Source of the DNA: Eubacteriales bacterium
GTDB lineage: Bacteria; Bacillota; Clostridia; Lachnospirales; Lachnospiraceae
DNA length: 64,000 nt
Reading direction: 5' to 3'
Assembly: GCA_030536575.1 (NCBI GenBank)
Contig: JAUNPS010000001.1
Span: forward strand, 62,001 to 126,000
Shown: piece by piece, positions 46,256 through 63,589 of the stretch
How the letters are laid out: every line of letters starts with the position of its first letter
Position numbering within the stretch: the first letter of the stretch is position 1
Position numbers and translations under genes: made by a program
Notes under the pieces: generated by a model
What the model was told of the DNA's origin: nothing
Database searches by the model: none
The model's input: the letters and a program-made list of their open reading frames with translations, nothing else

Positions 46256-49200
46256 TCAGAGCCGCCCCTCCAGCGTGTTCAAATATGCATCAATCTCCTG
46301 CAAATTCTCCCGCCATCCCTCCACCTGCTCATCCCGCACAATCTCCACGCTGCCTCCCTGAATCTCTCCATTTCCTCCCGCCTCATCTTCCATACAGCCC
46401 TCAATCCGCAGATAATCCTCCCGCAGCGCCTGCAGCACCTCTTCCTGCGGCTTCCACCTTCCCCGGCTCTCCAACTCCAGCAGCCGCCGCGCAATCTCCT
46501 CCGCCGCATACGGATTCTGCCCCAAAAGCCACTCCCGCATTTCCTCCTGATTCACATACGTCTCCGCCAACTGATCCAGAACCGCATCAGAAACGCAGTC
46601 ATTCATACACTTCGCCTCAAAAACCCGCTGCATCCGGCTCATCATCTCGCCCGCTCCCCGGTATCCCTCCTCACGCGTCCGATCCTGCCAGACCGGATTC
46701 AGCAGCGTCTGCCGAATATCCCGCTCCACGCTCTCTCCCAGCGCCAGCGTCTCCATCGGCTGATTTTTCTCACTGTAACTCTGATACTGGCGGATCTCCT
46801 TCTTCCCAATCATCTTCGCCGCCAGCCGGAACCCTCCCTGCACCTGTACCCCAAAACCGCAGGACAGCGAATCATTCCTCCTGGAAGAAGACAAATCACA
46901 GCTCAAATCAATCTTCTTCACATTCTGGACAAACTCCCGGATACTGCTCCTCCCGTTCAGTCCGTTTCCATACGCAAACGCGGATGCCTGGATAAAATAC
47001 CGGGCCAGGTCTTCGTCCGTTTCCCAGGCGCTGGCCTTCAGCGCCAGATCCAGCCCAGCCCCATACGTTCCCGGCGGGTCGCCGAAAATCCGGATCGTAC
47101 CGGCTCGCTTCCCCAGCTCGCCGCATTCACGCTCCATTTCATGAGTATTCGCCAAAATGTAGTTCTCCTCCTCGCTCTCCGGCAGGGAAGCTGCCAACAG
47201 CACCGCTTCGTCCATCAGATTCACCGCATCCGGCCAGGTATCCCGCATCACGCCGGAAATCCGCAGCGTCACATCGATCCTGGGCCGCCCCAGTTCGGAA
47301 ACGGGGATTTCCTTCAGCCCAATCACCCGGCCCTGCCGATCCCAGACCGGACGCACCCCCAGCAAATACAGGAACTGGGAGAGCTGCTCTCCATGGGTAC
47401 GGGCAATGTCCAGCGAAATCATATTCATTGCAATCTTCTTCGGATAGGCTCCCGCATCTTTCAAATATGTCTCCAAAAGCTGTTTCGCCAGCTCGCTTCC
47501 CCGCTCATAAGCCACCGGGTCCGGAATCTTATCCATGTTCATCTGATAAAAATTCCGCCCCGTCGGCAAAATCCTCCGCCCGTTTTCATCCGGCATCCCG
47601 CCTTCCGAAGACGGAATAAAGCCGCCGTTCAGCCCGTGAACCAGCAGATCCATCTCCTGTTTTGTGCACAGCAAAAGCCGGTACACCCGCCGGATATCCT
47701 CTCCCAGCAGTCCTCCCGTGTCCGTACTGCGCAGACATTCTTCGACAACTTCCCGCACCCGCCGCTGATAATCAAAGGCGCTTTCGTTCGCCCTGCGCTC
47801 CAATACCTGATCTGCCAGAAGCAGCTCTGTCAGATACCCAAGAATCTCTTCCTCATCCGGATTTTCTCCAAACACATGGAGCCTGGAAAGCTTCCCGCTT
47901 TCCGCGCTGGCCAGCAGTGCATCCCGCACAAGTGAAATCCCTTCCTCGAAAGTTTCCGCCGAATTCAATAATCCGCGCATGGCTTCCTTTTCTTCCAGCA
48001 GCTCCAAAATCCGTTCCCGAAAGGCTGTCCCCTGTCCGTTTTTCATCTGCACGGCTTCTTCATACGCCTGAATCTGATCCATCAGCCGCAGTTCCTCCGC
48101 GTCAAAGCCGCCGCTGCTGGCCGGATAATATCCAAACAAAACCGCATTCGCCCTGCGCTTCGCAATGCATCCTTCCGAAGTCACTCCGATATGATACGGA
48201 TAAAGGTTCGGCATGCTTCCCAGCACGGCATACGGCCAGCACTCCTGCCCCAGGCCGCTTCCCTTCCCCGGAAGATATTCCAGGCTTCCGTCCGTTCCGA
48301 TATGAACCACGGCATGCACCTGCCGCACCCGTTCCAGATAGCGGTACGTGGCAATATACTGATGAGTGGGCGGGCAATTCGGATCATGGAGAATCCGGCA
48401 GACCTCCCCGGTACATTTCGCACCATAGCACCCGCGCTTCGGCTGCACCAGCAGACAGACATTGCCAAAAGACAGTCCGGTAATAATCAGGTCGCCGCCC
48501 TGCACCATGCCTTCTCCGGGCGGATCCCCCCATGCTTTCCGGAGGGCTTCCCGCATCCGCGGGGTAAATTCCTGAAAATACTCCTGATATTCGCCCTGGG
48601 CGGACATCCGGTACAAACAGCCTCCGCTTTGCAGGATATCTTCCACGCTTGTCCAGCGAAAATCCGAGAACGCCTTTTTCTCCAGAATCAATTTCAGCAG
48701 CGCCTTGCCGTCCTCCGGAATCTGTTCCACCTGATATCCTTCTTTCTTCAGGCGCTTCAGAATCGCCACCGCACTTTCCAGCGCATCCAGCCCAAACGCC
48801 TTCCCAATCGTCGCCTCAACGCCTGCGCAGACAGAATTGTGTAAAATAAGCGCTATCTTTTTACGGCTGTTGGGCGTCGTCCGAAGGGCAATCCAGCTTT
48901 TTACCCGCCTGGCAAGCCCCTTTATGCTCTCTGGTTGTAAAACAATCTTCCGCTCCCTGGGGCTTCGCAGCGCAATCAGCACCGGTTCCGTCATGCCCGC
49001 CATCTCCGGATTCAAATAAGCCGACTGCATTTCCTCCGCCAGCGGATTCGTCTCTTCCTCCCACGTCTCGGTGGTGACGAAATACGTGCTGACCGGATGG
49101 AAGACCGGAACATCGTATTTGCAGAACATCCGGACTGAATTCTCCGACGCGCTCAGCCCGTCCGCCCCCTTAATCAAATGCATCTGGAACTGCACCAGCC

Positions 49201-49927
49201 CCTGAATCAGCACCTTCCCATCCTGACAGAAATAGTGCTCCACAAGCTCCTCAAACCCATAGCTGCGGATCGTCTCCCCGGTTTCCCCGGCGGAAAAGAC
49301 CGGAATCACACCGATTCCCAGTTCGTGAAATGCTCCAATCAATGCTTCCTCTGCCTGAAGGGTCTGGCTGACCCAGGAACTCCGATGGCTCATGATTCCC
49401 ACATACGTCTCATAGCCCGCTTCCTCTTTTTCCAAAAAAGCCGTTACATCCTGGTAAACCTCTCCGGTACGAACTCCATAAATCCCGTCAAAGGGCAGCC
49501 TGCACGGCTCCTCCGGAATCGGCGCCCCCTCCTCCAAAAACAGCCAGTGCCGGATATAGGAAACGCAGCGGCGCAGATTTTCATCACCGCCATACAACAG
49601 ATATTCATTGATCGTCGTAATAAATTCTTTTTTTACATTTCCCTGATTCAGCAGGAGCGCCTCCGAGCCGACGGGAACCAGCAGCATTTCTCCCTGCAAG
49701 GCGGTCAGAAATTCTTCCTGCGTTTTATTCATTCCACGGCTTCCAAACAAAAGGGCTACCTGCTCTTCCCGACACCAGGTATCCAGCTTTTCCAAAAACT
49801 CCTGCCTCTTTTGCTCGGTATCCAGCATGTCCCACTGGTAAATGCATAAGCTGACCTTCTGCTCCTGAGCGGCCTCTTCCCAGCCGCTTCCCTGCCCGCA
49901 AAACAAATCCAAAAGTATCAGTCTCAT
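46256..49927 (-). CDS. CobN-like chelatase large subunit with His-to-Asp change (copy 1)
   Basis: A 1223-residue CobN/ChlH/BchH-family protein. Family blocks include ILHNSVCAGVEATIGKAFGLDA, the metal-site region HIGTDGSLEYLPGK (H542, D546, E550) and GDPPGTYGAGLD. Compared with copy 2 the second His of HxGTHG is Asp, at exactly the same residue number. So it may bind a different metal, act in the reverse direction, or be a non-catalytic partner. The ATG at 49927 overlaps the copy 2 stop by 4 bp and has AAGGAG upstream. Last gene of the B12 operon. In CobN the subunit holds the tetrapyrrole while AAA subunits drive chelation. Confidence 0.9.
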   Translation of the reverse strand: MRLILLDLFCGQGSGWEEAAQEQKVSLCIYQWDMLDTEQKRQEFLEKLDTWCREEQVALLFGSRGMNKTQEEFLTALQGEMLLVPVGSEALLLNQGNVKKEFITTINEYLLYGGDENLRRCVSYIRHWLFLEEGAPIPEEPCRLPFDGIYGVRTGEVYQDVTAFLEKEEAGYETYVGIMSHRSSWVSQTLQAEEALIGAFHELGIGVIPVFSAGETGETIRSYGFEELVEHYFCQDGKVLIQGLVQFQMHLIKGADGLSASENSVRMFCKYDVPVFHPVSTYFVTTETWEEETNPLAEEMQSAYLNPEMAGMTEPVLIALRSPRERKIVLQPESIKGLARRVKSWIALRTTPNSRKKIALILHNSVCAGVEATIGKAFGLDALESAVAILKRLKKEGYQVEQIPEDGKALLKLILEKKAFSDFRWTSVEDILQSGGCLYRMSAQGEYQEYFQEFTPRMREALRKAWGDPPGEGMVQGGDLIITGLSFGNVCLLVQPKRGCYGAKCTGEVCRILHDPNCPPTHQYIATYRYLERVRQVHAVVHIGTDGSLEYLPGKGSGLGQECWPYAVLGSMPNLYPYHIGVTSEGCIAKRRANAVLFGYYPASSGGFDAEELRLMDQIQAYEEAVQMKNGQGTAFRERILELLEEKEAMRGLLNSAETFEEGISLVRDALLASAESGKLSRLHVFGENPDEEEILGYLTELLLADQVLERRANESAFDYQRRVREVVEECLRSTDTGGLLGEDIRRVYRLLLCTKQEMDLLVHGLNGGFIPSSEGGMPDENGRRILPTGRNFYQMNMDKIPDPVAYERGSELAKQLLETYLKDAGAYPKKIAMNMISLDIARTHGEQLSQFLYLLGVRPVWDRQGRVIGLKEIPVSELGRPRIDVTLRISGVMRDTWPDAVNLMDEAVLLAASLPESEEENYILANTHEMERECGELGKRAGTIRIFGDPPGTYGAGLDLALKASAWETDEDLARYFIQASAFAYGNGLNGRSSIREFVQNVKKIDLSCDLSSSRRNDSLSCGFGVQVQGGFRLAAKMIGKKEIRQYQSYSEKNQPMETLALGESVERDIRQTLLNPVWQDRTREEGYRGAGEMMSRMQRVFEAKCMNDCVSDAVLDQLAETYVNQEEMREWLLGQNPYAAEEIARRLLELESRGRWKPQEEVLQALREDYLRIEGCMEDEAGGNGEIQGGSVEIVRDEQVEGWRENLQEIDAYLNTLEGRL

Positions 49928-52900
49928 TCTTCGTCTCCTTCGAAATCCCCTTCCATTTCCAGGTAAATTTCCTGCAGTTTCTCCAGCTTCTCCTCCGAGG
50001 CGTTCCACATGTTCCGCTGCGCCGCCTCCAGCAGCCGCTCGCTCATCGCATGCAGCGCCCAGGGATTTACCTCTTTAATCCAGTCGTGAAGCTCCTGGTT
50101 ATTCAGATATTGCTCAAACACATCGTCGTACATATAGTCCTCGACCACATCGCTGGTCGCGTCCCAGCCGAACAAAATGTCCACCATAACCGAAAATTCC
50201 TGCGCACCTTTGAATCCGTGCTGCTTCATTCCCTCAATCCACCGGGGATTGTTGATCCGCGCCCGCATAATCCGGGCCGTCTCCTGAGCCACATTGCGCG
50301 TCACTACGTGCTCCGTATCCGCCGCATTGGTGGAATAGGAGGCCGGGGCACTCCCTTTCTGAGACTTGACCGCGGCAATCAGCCCGCCGTGATAATTATA
50401 GAAATCGTCGCTGTCCAGCATGTCCGCCTCGCAGGAAGAAATATTCTTCACCGTCACATCACACCCTGTCAGCCGATTCGCGAACAAATCCTGCATCTTT
50501 TCCCCGTGATACCGTCTGGAATAGCCGTGGCCGCTCCAGGTAATGTACGCCTTCCCTAAGTCGTCGCTGGTCTCCCATTTCCGGCTGTTGACCATGATAT
50601 CGACGCCTGCCCCATAGTTTCCGGGCGGGCATCCGAAAATCCGCACAGCCGCCCGCTCGTAGGCCTGCTCCCGATCCAGCCCGCTCTTCAGGAACGTCTC
50701 CATGTCCGCTTCCACATGCTTGCGGATGAAATTTTCCTCCGGCCCTTCCTCCAGCCCGGCGGCTAAGTTGACCGCTTCATCCACCAATTCGATCAGATTC
50801 GGGAAGGTATCCCGGAACAGGCCGCTGATGCGAAGCGTCACATCGATTCTGGGACGTCCCAGCTCCTCTGTCGGGATCACTTCCAACCCGATCACCCGAT
50901 CCGTCTGCCCCAGCCAGACCGGACGCACGCCATACAGATACAGGATTTCTGCAATGTCGTCGCCGCCCGTCTTCATCGTCTCCCCGGAATAAACCACAAT
51001 CGCAATCTCCTCCGGAACCGCTCCCGTCTCCTTCTCATGGGTCTTCAAGAGCTGGTCAGCCAGCCTTTTGCCTGTCTCCCAGGCCGCGCGGCTGGGAACC
51101 TCGGTGGGATCGATCGTGTAAAAATTCCGCCCGGTCGGCAGGATGTGCGCGTTCCCGCGGCTGGGCGCGCCGGAAGGCCCTTTTCGCACAAATTTCCCGT
51201 TCAGGCCGTCCAGCACCGACTGAATTTCATCCGCTGTGTCCATCAGGCGCGGATACACTTCGTCGGCCACGAACCGGAGACACTGTTCCAGTTGGTCACT
51301 CCGCGCCGGATTCAGCCCCTCCTGTTCGGAAATCTCCTGAATCATTCCTGCAATTTCTGTCTTCGCATACCCTTTTTCTTCCCAGCATGCAAACAGCTTC
51401 CGGCCAATCTCATCCGCCTGCTCCAGCTTCATGGCGTTCGTGCGGCCCGTTTCGTCGCACGCTTCCGGATACTCCAGCAAAGATTCCAGATCATAGCCCA
51501 GCATCCGGCAAATCCCCTGGCGCAGAGACGGTACATTGCCATTTTTCACCCGCACCAGAAGCCGCAGAAGATTCGTCAGGCGCTCGCCTTTTGGCGGCTG
51601 GCCAAACACGTGCAGGCCGTCCCGGATCTCCGAAGCCTTGATTTCGCTGACCCACAGATGCAGCTTTTCGGCCGTCTCCTCAAAGGATTCCGTAAAATCC
51701 TGCCAGGTAAGTCCCAGATCCCGCGTCAGATTCATGCGCTCTGCCAGTTCCCGGATTTCTTCCTGCAATTCGGCCGTCTTGCTGTTGCCGTTCTGTTTCG
51801 CATGGTAATACTTTGCCAGCCGCTCATCGATCACCGCAATGTCCCCATAAGCTCCTCCTTCCCGCATGGATGGGATCAGATGATCCACAATGCAGGCGGC
51901 CGTCCGGCGCTTGGCCTGGGCTCCCTCACCCGGCACATCAATGATATACGGATAAATGTTTGGCAGGTTCCCAATAGCCGCGTCCGGATAGCAGTTCCGG
52001 GACAGCCCGATTTCCTTCCCCGGAAGCCACTCGATGGTGCCGTGGGTACCGACGTGAATCACCGCATTGGCCCCAAATTCGTATTCCAGGTAGCGGTAAA
52101 AGGCCAGATATTGGTAGGGACATACCAGGTCGGTAGAGTGATAGCATTCCTCCGCTTTCTCTTCCTGCGCCCGGGGCGGCTGCAAGCCGATCAGAATATT
52201 TCCATTTTTAATGCACGGAACCAGAATCTGATCTCCCACTGCCATAAAGTCGCCCGGCGCTTCGCCCCAGTCCCGCAAAAGCTCCCTGCGGATCTTTTCC
52301 GGCAGCGCCGTGAACCAGCTCTGCCACTCCTGGGGCCCCGCCGTTGCCTCCGCCCGCGCAAGCAGTTCCTCGGCCGAACGGAAACGCCCGTCATTCGTCA
52401 GCCCCTTCGTAATCCGGTCAATAATCTCCTGCCCGTCCCGGAACGCATACTCTGTGCGGATGCCCTGTCCTTCCATGGCGCACACCAGATGGTAAACGGA
52501 TTCCGGCGTGTCCAGCCCGTAGGCGCAGCCGATCATGTCCGCCCGGGGCGGCATATTGTGCAGAATAATCGCAACCTTTTTCTCAGACTGGGGGATTCTG
52601 GAAAGGTTCGCCCAGTTCTTCGCCAGACGGACAAGCTTCTCCGCCCGATCCCGGACCAGCACCGGACGTTCCTTCACGCCGTAAGGGGTTTTCACCTGTT
52701 CCGTGCAGGTCAGAGGAACGCCGATGAGCTGGCCGTCAAATTCCGCCGTGTAAACATTGCCCAGATACATCGCATCCATCCCCCGCACCGACTCCTGCCA
52801 CTGCTGATACGTATAATTCGTCGTCAGCGCCTGGATGGCCGGAACGCCCAGAATCTCAAAAATACTGTCCTGTACCTGCTCCATCCCACAACCCGGCGCG

Positions 52901-53679
52901 GAAAGTACGCTGAGGGAATGTCCGGCTGCCACGATCATTGCCTGGGGAACGCTGCGCCCCTCCCAGATCAGGTACTTCCGGAGGGAAGCCCGCAGGCCGC
53001 CGTAAGAAACGTCCGTCGACGGCATCACATTGGAATAGAGCACCAGCGGTGTACAGCCAAAATCCCGGATGATTGCCATCAATTGATCCAGGTATTCCGT
53101 TTCACCAGTTTGAATGGTATGGAAATGGATCAGCACGCCGATGACCGGCTTCGGATCCTGGCTGACCGCTTCCAGATAGGCTTCGTCCGTCAGCCCTTCG
53201 TCCTTTCCATAATACCCGTCCCAGCGCGGGAACACGACCGGTTCATACGTACAGGGATAACCGGCCACCTTCTGAAACAGATAACGCAGAAAATTCCGCA
53301 GATTTTCTTTCCCGCCTGCTTCCAGGTAACTCAACAGGGTAGTCACCACCTGGGCCGGAAGTTTGCATTGCTTCGTCATCTCTTCCATTTCGGATTCAAT
53401 GGTCGAGCGGAAGAAATACGGTTTTTTTCCTTCGAAATACTCCCGAAATTTTAAGTAGCTCCGGAAATAGGCCATACTTCCATGAAAATTGAAGATGACA
53501 AAGTCCGCCTGCTTCACGCTTTCCAGGCTTTCCCTGCAAATATCTTCGTCCCGGTCGATCTCCGCTGTGTCATAGACGTCCATGAAAATATCGCTTATTT
53601 CCCTTCCTGCCTCCTCGAACGCTTCCCGAAAATCGCAGACAGGCCGTTTTCCTTCAAAAATTGCCGCAATTTTAAACAT
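49924..53679 (-). CDS. CobN-like chelatase large subunit (copy 2)
   Basis: A 1251-residue CobN/ChlH-family protein with the intact metal-site motif HVGTHGTIEWLPGK (H542, H546, E550), plus ILHNMPPRADMIGCAYGLDTPES and FGCPPGNYGAGVD. In aerobic B12 makers CobN with CobS and CobT inserts cobalt into hydrogenobyrinate diamide; in Bacteroides the CobN relative HmuS is reported to remove iron from haem. Here the AAA partners resemble ChlI and ChlD instead of CobS and CobT. No signal peptide, so cytosolic. It follows a BtuF-like gene across an 87-bp gap that holds a terminator-like hairpin. Confidence 0.92.
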   Translation of the reverse strand: MFKIAAIFEGKRPVCDFREAFEEAGREISDIFMDVYDTAEIDRDEDICRESLESVKQADFVIFNFHGSMAYFRSYLKFREYFEGKKPYFFRSTIESEMEEMTKQCKLPAQVVTTLLSYLEAGGKENLRNFLRYLFQKVAGYPCTYEPVVFPRWDGYYGKDEGLTDEAYLEAVSQDPKPVIGVLIHFHTIQTGETEYLDQLMAIIRDFGCTPLVLYSNVMPSTDVSYGGLRASLRKYLIWEGRSVPQAMIVAAGHSLSVLSAPGCGMEQVQDSIFEILGVPAIQALTTNYTYQQWQESVRGMDAMYLGNVYTAEFDGQLIGVPLTCTEQVKTPYGVKERPVLVRDRAEKLVRLAKNWANLSRIPQSEKKVAIILHNMPPRADMIGCAYGLDTPESVYHLVCAMEGQGIRTEYAFRDGQEIIDRITKGLTNDGRFRSAEELLARAEATAGPQEWQSWFTALPEKIRRELLRDWGEAPGDFMAVGDQILVPCIKNGNILIGLQPPRAQEEKAEECYHSTDLVCPYQYLAFYRYLEYEFGANAVIHVGTHGTIEWLPGKEIGLSRNCYPDAAIGNLPNIYPYIIDVPGEGAQAKRRTAACIVDHLIPSMREGGAYGDIAVIDERLAKYYHAKQNGNSKTAELQEEIRELAERMNLTRDLGLTWQDFTESFEETAEKLHLWVSEIKASEIRDGLHVFGQPPKGERLTNLLRLLVRVKNGNVPSLRQGICRMLGYDLESLLEYPEACDETGRTNAMKLEQADEIGRKLFACWEEKGYAKTEIAGMIQEISEQEGLNPARSDQLEQCLRFVADEVYPRLMDTADEIQSVLDGLNGKFVRKGPSGAPSRGNAHILPTGRNFYTIDPTEVPSRAAWETGKRLADQLLKTHEKETGAVPEEIAIVVYSGETMKTGGDDIAEILYLYGVRPVWLGQTDRVIGLEVIPTEELGRPRIDVTLRISGLFRDTFPNLIELVDEAVNLAAGLEEGPEENFIRKHVEADMETFLKSGLDREQAYERAAVRIFGCPPGNYGAGVDIMVNSRKWETSDDLGKAYITWSGHGYSRRYHGEKMQDLFANRLTGCDVTVKNISSCEADMLDSDDFYNYHGGLIAAVKSQKGSAPASYSTNAADTEHVVTRNVAQETARIMRARINNPRWIEGMKQHGFKGAQEFSVMVDILFGWDATSDVVEDYMYDDVFEQYLNNQELHDWIKEVNPWALHAMSERLLEAAQRNMWNASEEKLEKLQEIYLEMEGDFEGDEE

Positions 53680-53714
53680 ACCTCTTCTCCTTTCCTGCCG
53701 TGCTGACCCGCAGG

Positions 53715-53756
53715 TGAAAAAACTGGCTGCCGCACATTTCCATGCACCAGCCAGTC
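53715..53756 (-). terminator. Internal terminator-like hairpin between btuF and cobN2
   Basis: Minus-strand ACTGGCTG pairs with CAGCCAGT across an 18-base loop, followed by TTTTTTC. As a leaky terminator it would lower expression of the two very large CobN genes relative to the transporter genes. Confidence 0.65.
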
Positions 53757-53766
53757 CATGCTTTAT

Positions 53767-54897
53767 TTATTCTGCAAGGCTTACGTAATAGGTCAGTTCC
53801 CGATCCGGGAATACGTCCGGATAGATCGCTGCTGCCAGGTCAGCGGCCATCACGTCGGTCTGGTCAATACCAAGCCAGAACGGGTCGCCGTACTGATAAA
53901 CGCATCCGTTCTCATAGGCTGCGCACTCTGTGAGCTGCGGGAATGCTTCCAGAACGCCTTCCATTCCGTTGCAGTAAGCCGGGGTCGACGTATAAATGAT
54001 CACGTCCGCATCCTGCACGCAGTCAAAGGCTGCTTCCAGTGTCAGAGCACCTTCTGTCTGTCCACTGAACGCGTTGACGCCGCCCATATCAGCCAGCATC
54101 GTGCCAACCCAGCTCGTGTCGGAAGTCGCGTATACCGTTCCGTCATAAACGGAGAAAATAGCCACTTTCTTCTGTTCCTGGCCTTCCAGAGCCTCTTTTA
54201 CCGCGTCTACGTTTGCCTGTGCTTCCTGCATCACGGCGTCAACCTGCTCGTCCGCGTCGAAGAAGGTCAGCAGGAAACGCATCCATTCCATACGAGCCAT
54301 GTAATTAGATTCCATGTACTCATTGTCAACGGCATAGTTAATGCCCAGTTCCTCAAGTTTGGCAATAACGCTGGACTGCGGGCTGGAACCCGTGTATACA
54401 AATACAACGTCCGGTTCCAGAGACTGGATCAGCTCATAGTCCGGATCGCCCATTCCGCCGCCGACATCCACGATGTCGCCGCTTTCCATGGCTTCCTGAA
54501 TCGCCGGAATCTCCGCCCAGCTGTCCGCGGAACCGTTTACGCCGCCGATGGCGCTGATGACCGCGTCGTCATCCACCGCGCGGAATGCGCAGACCTGCGT
54601 AGAGGAAAGGAATACCGCATTATCCACCGGAGTCCGGATCACAATGCTGTCCGCGTATTCTTCCGGAACCGCTTCCAGCTCCTTCGGGACTAAAATCAGC
54701 TCCCGGTCTTCGCCGTCGATGACGCGTTTGATCCCGTCTTCCAGCAGTTCGATGGAAAAATCCGGATCGTAGAGGTTTTCTACGACGCCCGTGGCTTCCT
54801 CTGCCTGTACGATAACCGCATTGTTCGGCAAGCTGCCAAGAGACAGGCCTGCTGCCAGCACGCCGGCCAGCATCCATGTTACCATTCTTTTTTTCAT
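53767..54897 (-). CDS. btuF: BtuF/FecB-like corrinoid-binding protein
   Basis: A 376-residue class III periplasmic-type binding protein with an N-terminal signal sequence and a two-lobe fold (SLEPDVVFVYTGSSPQ, LTFFDADEQVDAV, then IYTSTPAYCNGM). It should deliver a corrinoid to the BtuCD-like transporter encoded in the same operon. Oddly there is no lipobox Cys; the leader ends NNAVIVQAEEA, suggesting signal peptidase I cleavage, which would leave a Gram-positive binding protein without a lipid anchor. The ATG at 54897 has AAAGGAG nine bases upstream. Confidence 0.87.
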   Translation of the reverse strand: MKKRMVTWMLAGVLAAGLSLGSLPNNAVIVQAEEATGVVENLYDPDFSIELLEDGIKRVIDGEDRELILVPKELEAVPEEYADSIVIRTPVDNAVFLSSTQVCAFRAVDDDAVISAIGGVNGSADSWAEIPAIQEAMESGDIVDVGGGMGDPDYELIQSLEPDVVFVYTGSSPQSSVIAKLEELGINYAVDNEYMESNYMARMEWMRFLLTFFDADEQVDAVMQEAQANVDAVKEALEGQEQKKVAIFSVYDGTVYATSDTSWVGTMLADMGGVNAFSGQTEGALTLEAAFDCVQDADVIIYTSTPAYCNGMEGVLEAFPQLTECAAYENGCVYQYGDPFWLGIDQTDVMAADLAAAIYPDVFPDRELTYYVSLAE

Positions 54898-54941
54898 GAT
54901 GTTACTCTCCTTTGGTTTTCTATTTCTGAGCCTTTCGGCAT

Positions 54942-56027: not shown

Positions 56028-57004
56028 TCCATCCCTCCTTGGTTCAGTGCTTCCAGTTGTTCCCGCAAAGCCCGGCTGTGTTCCTCCCGGCCGCAGGAAA
56101 TCAGTTCAAAGGTTAAAAATTTCGGATGAATCCGGCGGATCAGCCCTGCCGCCTGGGGCGCGGTAAACGGCCGGTGCCGGTCGATCTGGAAAATATGCGG
56201 ATATACCTGGCTGAAACGCTCCCAGTATGTTCCGGTAAGCTTCGGCGGGTTCGCAATCACGCTCTCCACATATTCCCCTGAAAGGGACTGCTGCAGATGA
56301 ATGCCTTTGATCCATCCGCACAATTCGCCATGTTCATCGAGCATCCGTTCAATGTAGGAGACGGCCTCTTCCTGTGTGCGCAGGCTGCGGTTCGTGTGCA
56401 GCAAATGCCCGGTGTCCAGCATAATCCCTTTTTTCTCATAGGAAATGCCGTAAAGCAGCCGCTCCGTGATTTCCGGCCGGGTCATCGTAAACCCGCTCCA
56501 CCAGAGGTTTTCCACCAGAAAATAAAAGGAATACGGCTTATCCGAAAGCAATGCGCGGATGATCTCGCAGGCGGCGTCACAGACCTCTTCATCCGTGTGC
56601 TTCTGCCGGTAGGTAAAACACTCTTCCAGACTGCATTCGGACACATGGAAGACCACGTACCGGACGCCCTGGGCCTGGGCAATTTCCAGCTCCTGTTCCC
56701 ATCTGTGCAGCATCGCATCCCGTTCCAGGCCCCCATAAACCGTGCGTACCGTCTCCCGGTCGCCATACTCCGCAAGCAGCGCATCCCAGTCTTCCCGCCA
56801 GAAATCCAGCCAGCTTGAAAAGTAGCTCAGATGAATTCCCTGCACGTCTTCCGCCGGAACAATCGGCGGAATCTCTTCTGCGCCGCAGAGCATCAGTTCC
56901 AATCCGTCGATTCCCTTGTCTTTATAAAATGCCCGCAAATCGGCCCGATCCTGATAGCGATCCAAATCCTGATTTGAAGCGGTGATATTCATCGATGTAA
57001 TCAT
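56024..57004 (-). CDS. AP-endonuclease-2-type TIM barrel, possible CbiR cobamide hydrolase
   Basis: A 326-residue xylose-isomerase/AP-endonuclease-2-like TIM barrel. Probable metal ligands are the Glu of FLVENLWW, Asp and His of IMLDTGHLLH, His of KGIHLQQS and Glu of LTFELIS. CbiR, described from Akkermansia, is a member of this superfamily that opens the cobamide nucleotide loop; the position next to cbiZ in a B12-controlled operon suggests this gene is CbiR-like. An ordinary sugar-phosphate isomerase is the alternative. The ATG at 57004 overlaps the previous stop by 4 bp and has AAAGGG upstream. Confidence 0.72.
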   Translation of the reverse strand: MITSMNITASNQDLDRYQDRADLRAFYKDKGIDGLELMLCGAEEIPPIVPAEDVQGIHLSYFSSWLDFWREDWDALLAEYGDRETVRTVYGGLERDAMLHRWEQELEIAQAQGVRYVVFHVSECSLEECFTYRQKHTDEEVCDAACEIIRALLSDKPYSFYFLVENLWWSGFTMTRPEITERLLYGISYEKKGIMLDTGHLLHTNRSLRTQEEAVSYIERMLDEHGELCGWIKGIHLQQSLSGEYVESVIANPPKLTGTYWERFSQVYPHIFQIDRHRPFTAPQAAGLIRRIHPKFLTFELISCGREEHSRALREQLEALNQGGME

Positions 57005-58017
57005 GTCGCATCCCTTTCTTTTTCCGCCAGCGCAAAAGCCGTTTTCAGCAATACGCAGTCCAAATCTCCCCCGCCGCGAAGCCCTCTGGAAGGACATCCC
57101 CCGGGACAGAATGGCCGATAACGGCAGGCTGTACAGCTTTCGGCTCTCTGCGCAGAAACCGAAACCGCCGGAGCATCCTCACTTCGCGGCTGAAACGTCT
57201 CCACGGTTCCCATCCGGTACTCCCCCAGCAGCAGCGAGCCGCAGGGGTACAGTGCACCGTCCGGCAAAACCACAAGGGAACGGCCACAGGAGGCGTAGCA
57301 GTAGTCCCCTCCGCCCCCGTCTGCCGTCAGGCGCTTTTTCGCCTGCTCGATTTCCCGGATCTGAATCTTTCTTCCGGAAAGCTGCTCAAGCTCCAGGCTG
57401 CGCCGCTGCATGGCTTCAAGCGCCTCCGCCAGAAGCTCCGGTTCCGCCGCCGAAACGCGGCTTTCTTCCCGTCCGCGCCCTGCTCTGCGCAGAAGATCCA
57501 GGCCGATGCCGCCCACATTGCCCAGATAAAAGGCAAAGTCCACAAGTTTTGGCAGCTCTTTCACATTCGCTGCCGTCACGACCGCATTCAGCCCGATCGT
57601 GATCTGCTGTTCGGCCAGAAATCCGATCCCCTGCAAGGCATTCTTCGTCCGGCCGCGGGTCAGGCGGTTGACACTTGGAATCCCGTCCAGGCTGACACCC
57701 GTTGAAATCCCATACCGTTTCAGCTTCGCGGCAATTGTACGGTCGATTAACGTCCCGTTCGTCTGCAATTGAAACACCGCATCGATCCCCTGTTCCCGCA
57801 CATACGCAATGATCTGCTCTGCAAGGCCAAAGTTCAGCAGCGGCTCCCCTCCGGCGAACTGGATTTTCAGCGGGTATTCCCGCAATGTGTCCAGAATCTT
57901 CCGCGCCGTCTCAAAACGCATATCTTCCGCAGCCGTATTTTCACTGGCATAGCAGTAGGTACACTGCAGGTTACAGCGGCCGGTCAGCCACAGAACCAGC
58001 AGAAGCCGCTTACGCAT
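57001..58017 (-). CDS. Radical SAM enzyme with SPASM-type C-terminus
   Basis: A 338-residue protein: radical SAM cluster motif C15-x3-C19-x2-C22 ([13 protein letters not shown]), GGEP in FAGGEPLLN, and a C-terminal cysteine-rich SPASM/twitch domain (CYASCGRS...LYPCGS...[18 protein letters not shown]). Such enzymes make peptide thioethers, sulfatase maturation or other radical modifications. No precursor peptide is visible nearby, so substrate is open; modification of a chelatase subunit or of a corrinoid side chain are possible ideas. The start at 58017 overlaps the end of the chlI-like gene by 8 bp. Confidence 0.9.
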
Positions 58018-59038
58018 GTTCCCGCAGGATCTGCTCGATCGCCGCCTCATCCAACACGCCGTTTTCGAACGGTGTGCGGCGCATCCGGTGGGGCAGTACC
58101 AGCACGGCGGCGTTTTTCAGGTCTTCCCGGCTCACCTTCGTCCGGCCCTCAAAAGCGGCAAGCGTCATCGCCGTCTTAATCATCGTGATATCCGCCCGGT
58201 GCCCGTCCACGCCCAGCGTCAGGGACAGGGCCGCCGCCATCAGCAGAATTTCATTCTCATAGCGGACGCTTCCCAGCCGCTCTTTCGCCTGTAAAATCTG
58301 CCCCGCTAACCGTTGTTGTTCCGGCTCGTACTGCCTGGCGAACTGCTCCGGATTTTCCTCAAATTCCAGCCTGCGGCGCACCACCTCGGCGCGCTGCTCT
58401 TTGCTGTTTTCCCCGCACACGTCCACCACCAGCCCGAAGCGGTCTAAAAGCTGGGGCCGCAGGTCGCCTTCCTCCGGGTTCATGGTTCCCACCAGGGTAA
58501 ACCGGGCCGGATGGCTGTAGGAAATCCCCTCCCGTTCCACGGTATTGACGCCCATGGCCGCGGAATCCAGCAGGACGTCCACCACATGGTCGTCGAGGAG
58601 GTTTACTTCGTCCACATAGAGAATGTTGCGGTTGGCCTGGGCCAGAATCCCGCATTCGAATTTCTTCGTCCCATGGGAAATGGCATATTCAATGTCCAGG
58701 GTGCCGACTACCCGGTCTTCGGTAGCGCTGACCGGAAGGTCGATTACCTGCATTTTCCCTTCCGTCCGCTCCAACGGCTCGCCCGCCTCCAGATGCGCTT
58801 CGCACTCCGGGCAGAAGTCCGTTCCGTCCGGATCACAGCCAAACCGGCAGCCTTTTACCTTCTGAAGCGTCGGCATCAGGGCCGCCAGCGCCCGGACGGC
58901 GGTGGATTTGGCCGTTCCCTTCTCGCCCCGGATCAGGACGCCGCCCAGTCTGGGATTGATGATATTTAAAATCAGAGCCTGTTTCATCCGTTCCTGCCCG
59001 ACAATCGCGGTAAACGGATACTGTATGTTTTCTTTCAT
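58010..59038 (-). CDS. ChlI/BchI-like chelatase AAA subunit
   Basis: A 342-residue AAA+ protein of the Mg-chelatase I family: Walker [10 protein letters not shown] (about residues 38-46), Walker [12 protein letters not shown], sensor [23 protein letters not shown] four-cysteine insert ([16 protein letters not shown], near residue 64) could bind a metal. It should form a hexameric motor with the ChlD-like protein to drive the CobN subunit. Overlaps its upstream neighbour by 4 bp. No bacteriochlorophyll genes are present, so magnesium insertion is unlikely. Confidence 0.92.
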
Positions 59039-60972
59039 TCGTCAGCCCGCCTTTTCTTCCTTAAAATCCCTGTATTCTCTTTCACGGCCATGCTCACCGC
59101 CGAGACGATGGCTCCTGCCCGCAGCTCCGACAGTTGATAGACCGTTGCGTCCATTTCCCGCCCCAGCTTTTCCGCCAGCCGCAGTTTGATAAAATCCTGC
59201 TCCACGTCGATGATCACCGTTTTAATGTGGTCGGCCGTCAGGGCCTTCCCTTCTTCCACCGCGTCTGCAAAGGGGTTTTTGCTGCGTCCGGCCGTCGCGC
59301 GCCCATCCGACACCAGTACAACTACCGGTAATAAATCCTTTTCTCTGCGTCTGGCCGCCTGCACCAGCGTATGCGCCGCTTCCAGCCCGGCATAGAGGGG
59401 CGTTTTTCCTCCTGTGGAAAGGGTTTCCAGCTTTTTCGCCGCCAAATCCACGCTGCGGGTCATTCCCAGCACCAATTCCGCCTGGTTTCGCCGGAAGGTA
59501 ATCATAGCCACTTTATCCCGTTTCTGGTAGGCGTCTCCCAGCATCGAAAGAATCGCCCCTTTCACCGCGGCCATCCGCCTGCCGACCCCCATAGAGCCAG
59601 AGGCATCCACGACGAACACGATAAAGTTCCCGGTTCGCTTTTCCCGCACCTTCGTGCGGATATCTTCCTTCTCGATCACCAGCGCCAGATCTTCCCGCCT
59701 CCGGGTTTTCTGATAAGGGGCCGCCGCCCGCAGGGTCGCGTCAAAGGCCAGATCCAGGTCTTCCCGGCGGTTCATGGTGCTCTTCACATAGCGCCCCTGA
59801 AGGGAGCTGGTCTTGACCAGGCTGCGCCTGCCGCTTCCCCGGCGCACCAGAGTTTTGGACTTTTCTTCCAGCCAGCGCCCCACCGCAAAGGTTTCGCCGA
59901 TTTCCTCGGTCTTCTCTTTCTCTTTTCCGGGCGCGGACTGGCCGGAATCGGAACCGCTTTCTTCCGGTTTGGGGTCCTCCTCAGATTCTTTCGTCTGCTG
60001 TTCTTCCGGTGTCTTTTCCGGTTCGGAGGGCGGTTCGGTTTCCCGGGTTTCTTCCGTCGGCTCTTCCGGCGCTTCTTCCCTTTGGTCTTCTTCCGGCGGC
60101 GTCTCCGTCTGCTGGGGCGCAGGCTGAGCATCCCGCATTCGGTGCGGGAGCGCGTAACGCGCCGCCTCCGTGATGGCCTCTTTATTCACGGAAGAGGAGC
60201 CGTTCCACGCACAGATGGCTCTTGCCGTCTCAATGACAGCGATTTCTCCCCGGCTTCCCTGGCAGTTCGCGTTCTGCGCAAGTTGGGCCGCCAGCGTCAG
60301 GGCCGCATCCGACACGCCGATAGACGAAAGGCGCTCCTTAGCCTTTTGGATCCGCCCGGCAAGCTGCCGCTCTTCCTCCTGATATTCTTCCGCAAAAGCC
60401 TGGGAATCCGCTTCAAACGCAATCCTGCGCCGCACAATCTCGCACCGCAGCAGCGGATTTTCCTCCGCCGTCACATCCACATAAAGCCCAAAGCGATCCA
60501 GAAGCTGGCTGCGCAGTCCGCTCTCCTCCGGGTTCATGCTTCCAACCAGCACAAACCGGCACGGATAGCTGGCGGAAATTCCTTCCCGCTCCACCCGGCA
60601 GACGCCGTCTCCGGCGGCCTCCACCAAAATTTTTGTCAGATTATCGCTCAGTAAATTGATCTCATCGACATACAGGACATTTTGATCCGCCTCATATAGG
60701 ATGCCTTTTTCCAGTTTCCGGACGCCTCGGCGAATCGCCTCTTCAAAATCAATGGCTCCTACCAGGCGGTCTTCCGTGGCATTTAACGGCAGTTCGATGA
60801 TTTTCTTCCCACTGATCGCCCCGGAGGCGCGCACCAGCGTGGATTTTGCGGTTCCTTTCTGGCCGCTGATCAGAACGCCGCCAATCTGAGGATTGATAAA
60901 ATTCCAGATCAGCGCGTTTTTAATTTGCTCCTGGCCCAGAACCGCGGAAAATGGAAAAATTGGTCGTTTCAT
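59035..60972 (-). CDS. ChlD-like chelatase subunit: AAA plus VWA domain
   Basis: A 645-residue protein: N-terminal AAA+ module (Walker [39 protein letters not shown]), an acidic Glu/Pro-rich linker of about 80 residues (around 290-370), and a C-terminal von Willebrand A domain with the MIDAS motif DASGSMG, the Thr of GGKTPLYAG and Asp of [11 protein letters not shown]. Unlike most ChlD proteins the Walker A motif is intact. The VWA domain would dock on an integrin-I-like site of the CobN subunit. ATG at 60972 preferred over 61002. Confidence 0.92.
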
Positions 60973-60976
60973 GTCG

Positions 60977-62176
60977 TCACCCCGCCGTTTCCAGCTTTTC
61001 AAATAATTCGGTTACGCTGGAAACGGTGCATACATTTTCTGCTTTATTTCCGTACAATGCTTCGCATTCTTCCCGGCTGCGCACTGACCAGATCTGACGC
61101 CCGGCGGCCAGGGCCTCCTGCAGAAGGGTCAGGTTCTCCCGGTTTTCCGTGCCAACCGGAAAGCCGCTGTCTACAATATAGCGGGCCTTCTGCATCAGCA
61201 CCTTCGCCCGTCTGGCATTTTCCGGACAAATCCGTTCAAAGGGTTTTTCGGATACCACTTCCCCGCAGATGCTTTTGGCCACCTGATAGTCCGCGTCGTT
61301 TTCATGCAGGATGCCGGAGGTCAGGCCATAGCCTTTGCGGGAGAGCGCGCGGTATAAGCGGATGCCGCTGGAATTGCCGCCGGTTACAAAAATGTCGTTC
61401 CCTTCCCGCCCTTTTAATTCGATTGCCCCAAAAAGCTCGCTGTACTGCGCTCCCCGAATTTCATAGAGCTGCTGGATAACCCCATCGCGCACCACGTCTT
61501 CCGGCGTTCCCTGAGACACAATTTTCCCATTATGTACCAATAGTACAATCTGGCAGCCCTTGAGCGCCAGGTCAATGTCGTGCAGGGACAAAATGCAGGT
61601 AATGCCTTTTTCATTCGCCAGTTTCTGCAGGACACGGACGACTTCCACTTTATGTTTAATATCCAGATGGCTTGTCGGTTCATCCAGGATAATCAACTCC
61701 GGCTCCTGTACCAGCGCCCGCGCAATCATCACTTTCTGCTTCTCGCCGTCGCTCAGTTCGCTGAAAAAGCGCTCCCGGAAGGCGGACGCGCCCACGGTTT
61801 CCAGGGATTCGTCGATAATTTTCTGGTCTTCCGGCGTCAGCTTTCCCAAAAAATTCGTATAAGGCGTGCGCCCCATCGCAATCAGTTCGTACACGGTGGT
61901 CATCGACGGCGCCACCTGATCGGTCAGCACCAGCGACATTTTCCGGGCAATGTCTTTCTTTTTCATCTTTTTCAGGTCGATGCCTTCCACCTGGACGGCG
62001 CCGCTCACCGGAGCCAAAAGGCCGGACAGGGTGCGCAGGATCGTACTTTTTCCCGCGCCGTTGGGGCCAAGCAGGCAGATAACCTGTCCGCGCATGGCGC
62101 GAAGTTCCACATCTGAGATCACGGCCCGGTTATGATAGCCTACATCCAGGTTTTCTGTACGGATAATCGGTTCCAT
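60977..62176 (-). CDS. btuD: BtuD/FecE-type ABC ATPase with extra C-terminal domain
   Basis: A 399-residue ATPase: Walker A GPNGAGKST, signature LSDGEKQK, Walker B LIILDEPTSHLD and switch SLHDIDLA. Residues 255-399 form an added domain (FVTGGNSSGIRLYRALSRKGYGLTSGILHENDADY) known from some cobalamin-type ATPases; it looks nucleotide- or ligand-binding. The gene starts directly after the btuC stop. It drives uptake through BtuC. Confidence 0.92.
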   Translation of the reverse strand: MEPIIRTENLDVGYHNRAVISDVELRAMRGQVICLLGPNGAGKSTILRTLSGLLAPVSGAVQVEGIDLKKMKKKDIARKMSLVLTDQVAPSMTTVYELIAMGRTPYTNFLGKLTPEDQKIIDESLETVGASAFRERFFSELSDGEKQKVMIARALVQEPELIILDEPTSHLDIKHKVEVVRVLQKLANEKGITCILSLHDIDLALKGCQIVLLVHNGKIVSQGTPEDVVRDGVIQQLYEIRGAQYSELFGAIELKGREGNDIFVTGGNSSGIRLYRALSRKGYGLTSGILHENDADYQVAKSICGEVVSEKPFERICPENARRAKVLMQKARYIVDSGFPVGTENRENLTLLQEALAAGRQIWSVRSREECEALYGNKAENVCTVSSVTELFEKLETAG

Positions 62177-63202
62177 TTACATTTCCCCTCTCTTTTGTTT
62201 TACCAGCAAATACACGACAATCGGCGCGCCGATCAGGGAGGTCATGGCTCCCAGCGGCAGTTCGGTGGGGGACATCAAAAGCCGTGCCCCCATGTCGCAC
62301 AGGCCAGCCATCACGGCTCCGTAAATGCAGGAAGCCGGAATGACGATACGGTTATCCGAGGTTTTGAACAGACAGCGCACGATGTGCGGCACCGCCAAAC
62401 CCACGAAAGAAATGGAACCGGCGAATGCGGTCACGACCGCGGTCAGCACGCTGGATACCAGAACCATCAAAAAGCGGAAAGGCCGGATAGAGATTCCCAT
62501 GGACTGGGCATATTTTTCGCCCAACAGCATGGCGTTCAGCGGTTTGCTCATCAAAAAGGCCAGAAACAGGAATGGAATCGTGACCAGATACAAAATTTTC
62601 ACGTGGCTCCAGGTAAATCCGGCGAAGCTTCCCATCGTCCAGATGGAAAAGGCGGCGATTTTTTCCCGGTCGGCGATTACGGTCAGGACGCTGGTTCCGG
62701 CGCTGCACACGTAGCCCACCATCATGCCGATGATTAAAAGTGTCGTAATGCTTTTCACCTTCTGGGAGGCGAAGATAACGATCACCATAACCAGCATAGC
62801 GCCGAGAAACGCGCCCACGAAAAGACCCATAGAGGTCATGGTTTTCATCCCGAAAGTATAGCCTCCCAGGATAATCAGTGCCAGAACGAGAGTCGAACCG
62901 GACGAAATTCCGAGGATGTAGGGTTCGACGATGGGGTTTCCAAAAAAGACCTGAAGCAGGATACCGGAAGTGGCAAGTGCTGCGCCTCCGGCCAGGGCGG
63001 CCAATGTCCGTGGCAGACGGATATTCAAAATGATCGAATAGTGGGAACGGTTTACCAGTTCTGGTTCTGTGAAGCATTGAAGAATTTCCGGCAGGGTAAT
63101 CTGGACGGAACCCAGGGAAATATTCAGCAAAAAGATGGCCAGCAAGGCCAGGAGTCCAATGGTAAAAAGGAGGCTGTAGCGTAAGGTCGTTTTGTGCGTC
63201 AT
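62177..63202 (-). CDS. btuC: BtuC/FecCD-type ABC permease
   Basis: A 341-residue permease with about ten transmembrane segments. FecCD landmarks are LRLPRTLAALAGGAALATSGILLQ-like sequence near residue 60, PEPYILGISSGS and SISFVGLAVPHIVR. The ATG at 63202 has AGGAGA upstream and lies 19 bp after the riboswitch terminator. First gene of the operon, so most directly under B12 control. Corrinoid is the inferred substrate because of the riboswitch and CbiZ. Confidence 0.93.
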   Translation of the reverse strand: MTHKTTLRYSLLFTIGLLALLAIFLLNISLGSVQITLPEILQCFTEPELVNRSHYSIILNIRLPRTLAALAGGAALATSGILLQVFFGNPIVEPYILGISSGSTLVLALIILGGYTFGMKTMTSMGLFVGAFLGAMLVMVIVIFASQKVKSITTLLIIGMMVGYVCSAGTSVLTVIADREKIAAFSIWTMGSFAGFTWSHVKILYLVTIPFLFLAFLMSKPLNAMLLGEKYAQSMGISIRPFRFLMVLVSSVLTAVVTAFAGSISFVGLAVPHIVRCLFKTSDNRIVIPASCIYGAVMAGLCDMGARLLMSPTELPLGAMTSLIGAPIVVYLLVKQKRGEM

Positions 63203-63220
63203 TCTTGTGTGTTCTCCTGA

Positions 63221-63263
63221 AAATAAAAAACATCTGATGGAACTTCGCTCCCAAAAGATGTTT
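63221..63263 (-). terminator. Riboswitch expression-platform terminator
   Basis: Minus-strand AAACATCT and AGATGTTT close a stem with an inner GGGA/TTCC pairing, followed by TTTTTTATTT. It stands between the cobalamin aptamer and btuC and should form when ligand is bound. Confidence 0.85.
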
Positions 63264-63370
63264 AAAATACAATTTGAATACACAGCTTCTCACCGCTGTG
63301 CAGCCTGCATTCTTATCTGTTCGCCAGAGTTCCGCAGCTCCCAGATAACACCCGTTGGAAACGAGCAAAA

Positions 63371-63540
63371 TACAGGTAAGTATTCCGACTGATAGCTGCT
63401 GAGCTCTCAGCATATGCGCGCCTTCCCGGAAAACTCCAGTGGCTGGGAACATCCCTGCGCATAAATAAGCTAAACACGGCAACGGCCTTGTCCAGGATTC
63501 TCACCTGGTTCCTTTTTTCTGTGCTTGCACACCTGCATTT
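63371..63540 (-). ncRNA. Cobalamin riboswitch
   Basis: Read on the minus strand: AAAAAAGGAACCAGGTGAGA with the stem CCAGG/CCTGG around TGAGAAT, then AAGGCCGTTGCCGTG, a GGGAAGGCGCGC segment, and the B12 box AGTCGGAATACTTACCTG near 63371-63390. These are the core parts of the AdoCbl aptamer in the right order and spacing. Control by transcription termination is inferred from the terminator at 63221-63263. Confidence 0.93.
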
Positions 63541-63560
63541 CGAATTTTTATATTAACCAA

Positions 63561-63589
63561 ATTCTACTACTAAGCCCCTGGAAAGTCAA
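63561..63589 (-). promoter_or_regulatory. Promoter of the B12 operon
   Basis: Minus-strand TTGACT (63589-63584), 17-bp spacer, TAGAAT (63566-63561). Transcription would begin near 63554, about 15 nt before the aptamer. Confidence 0.7.

Follow-up and report, generated by a model that had tools for sequence, protein, structure and literature searches.

Under corrinoid starvation, the corrinoid auxotroph Dehalobacter restrictus, which has a truncated cbiH, induces its operon-2, composed of a cobalamin riboswitch, an importer, two CbiZ, a CobN and magnesium chelatase subunits: RNA of the first gene rises 346-fold and the proteins 46-fold on average. This operon shows synteny with Acetobacterium woodii, is absent from other Dehalobacter, and horizontal transfer was proposed for it, so that both the operon type and its B12 regulation are already published (PMC4285132). 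In the same chelatase superfamily, HmuS is a demonstrated de-chelatase for whose turnover the second histidine of HxGTHG, said to be conserved across the superfamily, is essential, and many CobN-annotated sequences have unclear functions (PMC12583661); BtuS was predicted to serve metalloporphyrin salvage, credited to Rodionov 2003 (PMC6460266). The subject here is a ten-gene operon of this type, with two CobN-like proteins (CobN1 and CobN2), on the minus strand of a 64-kb window, i.e. the whole analyzed stretch of an Eubacteriales bacterium genome (GCA_030536575.1, contig JAUNPS010000001.1, positions 62,001 to 126,000). It is quite likely that this operon is linked to salvage and separate from ring synthesis and, more tentatively and at somewhat less than an even chance, that it is a B12-repressed salvage operon which inserts or corrects the metal of imported corrinoids. 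Established below are the genes it contains and its riboswitch, its conservation, its occurrence beside CbiK or CbiX and, for CobN2, the motif and the co-inheritance with CobN1.

Organization of the operon

The operon occupies positions 63551-46256 of the minus strand, where a riboswitch and a terminator-like hairpin are followed by ten co-directional, nearly gapless genes in the order btuC, btuD, chlD, chlI, radical SAM, barrel, cbiZ, btuF, cobN1 and cobN2. Neighboring genes abut, share 4-8 nt or are separated by 4-87 nt, which bears out the arrangement described in a previous sequence-only reading of this DNA, and Pfam and NCBIfam agree with the gene names given there.

63561..63589, minus strand: candidate sigma-70 promoter, TTGACT-17-TAGAAT (consensus scan, 10/12 positions matched)
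63358..63551, minus strand: cobalamin riboswitch aptamer RF00174 (cmscan 72.5 bits, E 6e-16, full length, model 1-189)
63228..63263, minus strand: terminator-like hairpin, then a U-rich run (minimum-free-energy fold of leader 63204-63357)
62177..63202, minus strand: btuC, corrinoid-type ABC permease (FecCD 276 bits; ATG preceded by a Shine-Dalgarno-like stretch)
60977..62176, minus strand: btuD, ATPase with a C-terminal extension (ABC_tran 112.8 bits; abuts btuC)
59035..60972, minus strand: chlD-like AAA+/VWA subunit (TIGR02442 651.5 bits, cut-off 779.45; 4-nt gap after btuD)
58010..59038, minus strand: chlI-like AAA+ motor subunit (TIGR02442 498 and TIGR02030 423 bits, both below cut-off; 4-nt overlap with chlD)
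57001..58017, minus strand: radical SAM/SPASM-like protein (Radical_SAM 65 bits; 8-nt overlap with chlI)
56024..57004, minus strand: AP-endonuclease-2/xylose-isomerase-like TIM barrel (Pfam AP_endonuc_2 32.6 bits; 4-nt overlap with the radical SAM gene)
54942..56027, minus strand: cbiZ, adenosylcobinamide amidohydrolase family (CbiZ 202 bits; 4-nt overlap with the barrel gene)
53767..54897, minus strand: btuF, solute-binding protein (Peripla_BP_2 66.8 bits; 44-nt gap after cbiZ)
49924..53679, minus strand: cobN1, canonical class I chelatase large subunit (CobN-Mg_chel 1189 bits; 87-nt gap after btuF)
46256..49927, minus strand: cobN2, cysteine-type CobN paralogue (PF02514 924 bits; 4-nt overlap with cobN1)
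48374..48430, minus strand: cobN2 motif C500-X4-C505-X4-C510-X7-C518 (28/28 CobN2)
48287..48304, minus strand: cobN2 HIGTDG, i.e. HxGTHG with the second His replaced by Asp (alignment)

RF00174 is the sole Rfam match above gathering score in the window. The whole 154-nt leader folds with a z of -3.42 (none of 200 shuffles was equally stable), and its hairpin, placed immediately 5' of the btuC ribosome site, was not among the terminators listed by a simple scan of the window. The promoter scan is weak alone, with 2 found against 1.0 expected from shuffles. From the riboswitch and the terminator-like hairpin, repression of the operon by B12 is predicted. With BtuFCD and CbiZ families encoded together downstream of RF00174, the operon has a corrinoid context. 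The next downstream gene on the same strand after cobN2 belongs to the isochorismatase family (45478-46182); therefore, the pair of ABC-2 transporter genes common in relatives (see below) does not follow here.

All components of a class I (AAA+) chelatase are present: a large subunit of the CobN/ChlH family, a ChlI-type and a ChlD-type protein. Walker A and MIDAS-like stretches could be read in the translations (GEKGTAKST in ChlI; GQKGTAKST and DASGSMG in ChlD, whose listed TTG start lies upstream of the chosen ATG at 60972), AAA_lid_2/Mg_chelatase/VWA are among the Pfam matches of the operon, and ATP-dependent metal handling is predicted. CobN1 exceeds the cut-off of the CobN equivalog TIGR02257 (928 vs 822 bits) and retains HVGTHG (52056-52039, minus strand) and DDFYNYHGG. 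Both large subunits stay below the BchH equivalog cut-off (580 and 714 vs 829 bits), and neither has a KD19 window over 1.8, so that no membrane anchor is evident. The best NCBIfam match of BtuD is the corrinoid ABC ATPase NF007082 with 234 bits (cut-off 537), and BtuF, with an N-terminal signal peptide judged by eye, has IsdE as its best match at only 39.9 bits (cut-off 298.65).

Coexistence with de novo corrin synthesis

The sequence-only reading had found no corrin-ring genes and hinted that the de novo pathway might be absent. None was named within the 64 kb, as it had stated; elsewhere in the host genome (G000; 4.81 Mb in 100 contigs, 90.7% complete, 3.1% contaminated, with the window on contig C100) a near-complete anaerobic corrin pathway is present, and a host lacking de novo corrin genes is ruled out. 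Its corrin operon on contig C38 encodes, as named by eye from translations, CbiD, CbiL, CbiF, CbiG, CbiH, a fused CbiJ-CbiE/T, CbiA, CbiB, a CobD-like protein and CbiP; profiles matched four TP-methylase domains and CbiC there. It is preceded by an AdoCbl-II riboswitch barely above gathering score (36.7 vs 36.5). There are two PF02514 proteins in the host, both in the window operon, and two CbiK cobalt chelatase genes; together with the CbiK or CbiX of relatives, the latter rule out CobN as the only cobalt chelatase.

Twenty other genomes with the operon or a near variant of it were tested for ring synthesis, i.e. five genomes bearing G handles, of which G451 and G642 have a CobN1-type operon with no CobN2 seen, and 15 of 24 loci obtained by a CobN2 scan (see below). 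CbiC was present in 18 of them, and so the suspected absence of the de novo pathway holds neither for the host nor for most relatives. These 18 had 4-7 TP-methylase matches, and 2 and 3 were found in the other two, G670 (L108) and G672 (L111). One such match or more is expected in any genome, as RsmI, and the family was indeed present in 14/14 control genomes. A class II chelatase accompanied CbiC in every case: CbiK above 100 bits in 14 genomes and CbiX above 80 bits in the other four (G668, G677, G679, G681), both thresholds being set after the scores were seen. G670 and G672, metagenome-assembled genomes (MAGs) of unstated completeness in which absence is provisional, had no CbiC, CbiK or CbiX and kept the operon. 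Given that CbiK or CbiX is found in 18 of 18 genomes with corrin-ring genes, and that two genomes lacking ring genes and these enzymes alike still have the operon, ordinary cobalt insertion is probably not the task of the class I chelatase. In Negativibacillus massiliensis Marseille-P3213T (71%, 61% and 79% identity to the window in CobN1, CobN2 and ChlI; the locus starts at chlD and keeps the window order through to cobN2), the operon, CbiK and CbiC lie on one contig of 1,692,207 bases, and their coexistence is therefore no binning artefact; operon and CbiK/cbi genes also coexist in the single-contig genome G381.

The tie of a class I chelatase to corrinoid import rather than ring synthesis, proposed in the sequence-only reading, is thus supported, host cobalt insertion having its own CbiK. 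What that reading had named as speaking against itself, a cobalt-insertion pathway in which this CobN serves, was not encountered: a pathway is present, with CbiK of its own. As a whole, its interpretation is partly supported.

Some further host loci touch on the same metabolism. Between cbiD and cbiL on C38, about 800 bases (L019, 13204-14020) contain only repetitive-looking frames and are apparently non-coding. On C47, a 901-codon frame (L020, 8817-11522) with a HemC-like start (by eye) and a TP-methylase domain, apparently a HemC-CobA-HemD-type fusion, is followed by hemB- and hemL-like genes. On C97 (L024, 4063-9784), a cobalamin riboswitch precedes CbiK, a NEAT-domain protein, a Peripla_BP_2 protein and BtuC/BtuD-like genes; the N-terminal extension of this CbiK resembles a signal peptide by eye, and it is possibly an exported chelatase beside a haem-type binding domain. 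Cobalamin riboswitches also stand before oligopeptide/nickel-type ABC transporter operons (by eye) at L022, L023 and L028 (C83, C100 and C53). At L026 (C1, 4034-12794), a riboswitch of 106.7 bits precedes a nickel/oligopeptide-type ABC transporter operon which continues with two nitrogenase-component-1-like genes and one resembling NifH/CfbC (333 bits with the CfbC model, cut-off 402; 360 bits with the NifH model, cut-off 394); B12 apparently controls a nitrogenase-like complex here.

The four-cysteine CobN2

CobN1 and CobN2 differ in kind. CobN2 meets no NCBIfam cut-off (best 940 vs 1468 bits, NF004646), and all 28 CobN2 sequences compared, two of them identical, carry PKRGCYGxxCTGEVC and a fourth cysteine in the pattern CX4CX4CX7C; none of the 34 other CobN-like proteins has this pattern, the region being covered in 33 of them. 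It is also absent from the M. tuberculosis CobN and ChlH chains aligned and from five plasmid-borne CobN references chosen among 30 listed of 159 records. L093, a sister sequence, lacks one of the four cysteines and has the histidine. The motif may be older than the CobN2 clade. It adds about 5 residues upstream of HxGTHG, the second histidine of which is kept in all 33 other sequences covering it; of the 28 CobN2, 8 retain it and 20 have Gly, Ala, Asp, Glu or Phe at this place. Where the window CobN1 reads YHGG, the window CobN2 reads VQGG, and this stretch is variable within both groups.

In a quick tree of 62 rows, the 26 CobN2 longer than 900 aa form one side of a branch with an SH-aLRT of 100. 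CobN1 and CobN2 distances correlate across 18 loci (r 0.952, 0/5000 permutations), as co-inherited genes would give. The AlphaFold model of CobN2 (residues 24-1223, mean pLDDT 85.9) matches CobN 7c6o with a TM of 0.75, HmuS 9d26 with 0.72 and ChlH with 0.64-0.67. Residues 502-513 (model residues 479-490), holding two of the four cysteines, have a pLDDT below 50; the cysteine loop, of low confidence in its middle, adjoins the active site and may bind a metal or an Fe-S cluster. No description of a second, cysteine-type CobN subunit was found in searches of open-licence PMC papers.

Distribution and gene neighborhood in relatives

Above its cut-off, PF02514 was found in 10 of 391 genomes of the class, the host included, and in 12 at E 0.001, none of the other genomes among these 12 belonging to the same family. 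A scan with a four-sequence CobN2 alignment and two peptide patterns found 24 loci, in named species and MAGs of the Bacillota and Actinomycetota. In the stretches fetched from 28 other genomes, CobN lies together with further members of the set in 27, and the remaining one (L120) has CobN2 alone. The conservation anticipated in the sequence-only reading is therefore real, though sporadic, and the patchy distribution suggests horizontal spread. Among 29 genomes including the window, the radical SAM gene was seen in 21, an ABC-2 permease in 20, CbiZ in 18 and the barrel in 6; adjoining stretches were merged and L126, a duplicate of G347, was omitted for these counts, which are lower bounds since contig or fetch ends truncate many of the loci. 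Of 17 other genomes of the operon type that were scanned, 7 (G381, G347, G451, G471, L106, L110, L111) have RF00174 ahead of operon genes and 3 (L113, L114, L121) have it only downstream; the stretches of the other 7 (G642, L103, L104, L105, L108, L109, L119), several of them starting within the operon, do not contain it.

A second cbiC directly follows cobN2 in five loci (G381, G471, L113, L119 and, by similarity only, L116), btuR lies 3' of cobN2 in N. massiliensis, cbiJ is near three operons (G381, G471, L111), and cobalt-uptake-like genes (CbiM/CbiQ, by eye) are near some. These genes point to a corrin-ring substrate and, via btuR, to a cobalt product, while the ABC-2 pair suggests that something exits the cell. 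That the operon CbiC is a dead carrier was ruled out: in an alignment without L116 and the CbiC of the host itself, all four operon copies keep the RIIHTTAD/RIIHSTAD of the core copies, which we take to be the CbiC active site.

Two other arrangements were observed. A simpler operon in other genomes of the class (L093, L095, L096) consists of a BtuFCD-like importer, one CobN, ChlI and ChlD, with RF00174 found in L095 and L096 and not in L093. In a Desulfitobacteriaceae MAG, cobN1/radical SAM and cbiZ are separated by a gene of the carbon-nitrogen hydrolase family (L122, 7931-8695).

Accessory genes

The radical SAM protein has homologues of 46-52% identity in three other operons; its gene lies 12 nt or less from a cobN in 7 of 21 loci (L099, L109, L111, L112, L113, L114, L119) and more than 3 kb away in some others, window included. 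Its top NCBIfam model is PapB with 113 bits (cut-off 340), the NirJ, AhbC and AhbD models being near behind. With models this close and an overlap with both adjacent genes, it may be a peptide-maturing enzyme less readily than its top match would suggest.

The AP_endonuc_2 match of the barrel is only just above cut-off (32.6 vs 31.1 bits). Its AlphaFold model (pLDDT 95) is closest in the PDB to endonuclease IV and ketose epimerases with a TM of about 0.5-0.6, and these matches point to no particular function. It recurs in six CobN2 loci, the window among them. An operon-specific corrinoid enzyme is ruled out for it by homologues in 27 of 295 genomes of the order, the host included, with no CobN nearby in any of 20 regions read and no RF00174 in the 8 of these scanned. 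A second host paralogue, 44% identical (L053, 9432-10439, contig C95), has neither CobN nor a B12 riboswitch within the 20 kb read.

Proposed role and alternative explanations

The proposed salvage route would begin at low adenosylcobalamin, when BtuFCD would import foreign or damaged corrinoids, from which CbiZ would remove the nucleotide arm. A cytoplasmic class I chelatase, with ChlI as the motor, ChlD as the adaptor and CobN1 and CobN2 as large subunits, might then use ATP to insert cobalt into rings lacking it or to correct the metal of wrongly metalled ones, and the corrected ring would re-enter the host's own late cobamide pathway. CobN1, with intact active-site motifs, and CobN2, as a specialised second large subunit, might share this work, and the radical SAM protein and the barrel might perform accessory, substrate-modifying steps.

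Several points weigh against this proposal. To our knowledge, metal-free or wrongly metalled corrinoids are not common in nature, and we infer which substrate, metal and direction apply, as well as each of the catalytic steps. Although recognizable members of their families, ChlI and ChlD remain below every NCBIfam equivalog cut-off listed, and the barrel is seen in only 6 of 29 genomes. Moreover, G451, listed as 100% complete, has a single PF02514 protein of the CobN1 type, and G347, whose CobN2 is identical to that of Lutispora thermophila, has whole cobN2, chlI and chlD genes and only fragments of cobN1, one with a stop (L097, 12251-12742, and G347:C15:52263-52844). Since each large subunit occurs without the other intact, a strict two-step division between them is doubtful. 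The ABC-2 transporter of 20 of 29 genomes would fit disposal or secretion at least as well, although the window operon is without it.

That last point leads to metal removal, in which the chelatase would run in reverse and take cobalt or another metal from imported corrinoids or other tetrapyrroles, the metal being kept for CbiK and the empty ring leaving via ABC-2. HmuS sets a precedent in the superfamily (PMC12583661), the CobN2 cysteines could serve redox or metal capture, and coexisting CbiK would make freed cobalt reusable. However, the HmuS/BtuS signature, LSLDHxxEFMGG with a membrane anchor, is missing—CobN1 has DDFYNYHGG at that place and no evident anchor—and the ABC-2 pair is not in the window operon. 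Induction at B12 shortage and use by an auxotroph would make the destruction of cobalt-corrinoids wasteful, and the latter fits corrinoid making better (PMC4285132). Metal removal is, accordingly, doubtful.

Still less probable is an ordinary cobalt chelatase, i.e. a second ATP-driven inserter for the cell's own corrin synthesis at scarce cobalt, clustered with importers merely by shared B12 regulation. CobN1 above its equivalog cut-off and the cbiC, cbiJ and cobalt-uptake genes (by eye) near some copies would agree with it, late insertion is the known role of CobN (PMC7689651), and for the anaerobe Thermacetogenium phaeum, in which the precorrin-2 cobalt chelatase gene was not found, a cobN-like gene was suggested as substitute (PMC3551663). 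Against this stand the CbiK or CbiX of all 18 CbiC genomes and the operon kept in two MAGs provisionally without corrin-ring genes; CbiZ in the same gene run and a second, altered CobN would also be left unexplained. The use of haem or another porphyrin, with the CobN proteins stripping iron as in hmu operons, is very improbable: the IsdE match of BtuF, the kinship with HmuS and two Methanosarcina barkeri BtuS copies read as haem-related (PMC10846266) are outweighed by CbiZ, the cobalamin riboswitch and the relatives' cbiC and btuR, which point to corrinoids, and by the missing HmuS signature.

Once a corrin is complete, its cobalt is generally considered fixed. The unusual CobN2 cysteines hint at a candidate route of repairing or exchanging the B12 metal, and a further, quite unlikely reading would be a two-headed exchanger: a cysteine-bound cluster or cobalt site of CobN2, replacing the usual histidines, would loosen or receive the metal of an imported corrin, CobN1 would insert the right one, a single ChlI/ChlD motor would drive both, the radical SAM protein would alter the ring, and unusable rings or metal-swapped antivitamins would exit via ABC-2 where present. 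We know of no enzyme system that alters the metal once a B12 ring is complete; the exchanger, if true, would be the first. The operon thus raises the testable question of whether anaerobes can exchange or restore the metal in B12 that they scavenge. CobN2 with its four cysteines is a concrete protein for purification, and named hosts, including Acetobacterium species, N. massiliensis and Lutispora thermophila, mean that cultured organisms are at hand.

Comparison with known systems

The ChlI/ChlD architecture is shared with the magnesium chelatase ChlIDH, while both window CobNs fall short of the BchH cut-off. The Bacteroidota haem de-chelatases HmuS/BtuS belong to the same superfamily and are also tied to metallo-tetrapyrrole import, but HmuS is described as membrane-bound and NADH-dependent with motifs of its own, whereas the window CobNs have no membrane segment and stand with AAA+ partners and corrinoid genes. 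Compared with aerobic CobNST (M. tuberculosis CobN 7c6o), CobN1 is full-length and above the family cut-off and CobN2 has the same fold; unlike in that system, the partners are of the ChlI/ChlD type, the host has the early-insertion enzyme CbiK, and an importer and CbiZ are part of the operon.

The closest likeness is to operon-2 of D. restrictus and the A. woodii region, which share with the window the cobalamin riboswitch, the Fep/Btu-type importer, CbiZ, CobN, the magnesium-chelatase-type subunits and a patchy distribution; the gene content of operon-2 is found in the window as a cobalamin riboswitch, a BtuFCD-like importer, CbiZ, CobN and ChlI/D. The available parts of the operon-2 description mention no two kinds of CobN, radical SAM protein, barrel or mechanism, and name one CobN and two CbiZ (PMC4285132), whereas the window, which has no ABC-2 pair, encodes two kinds of CobN and a single CbiZ.

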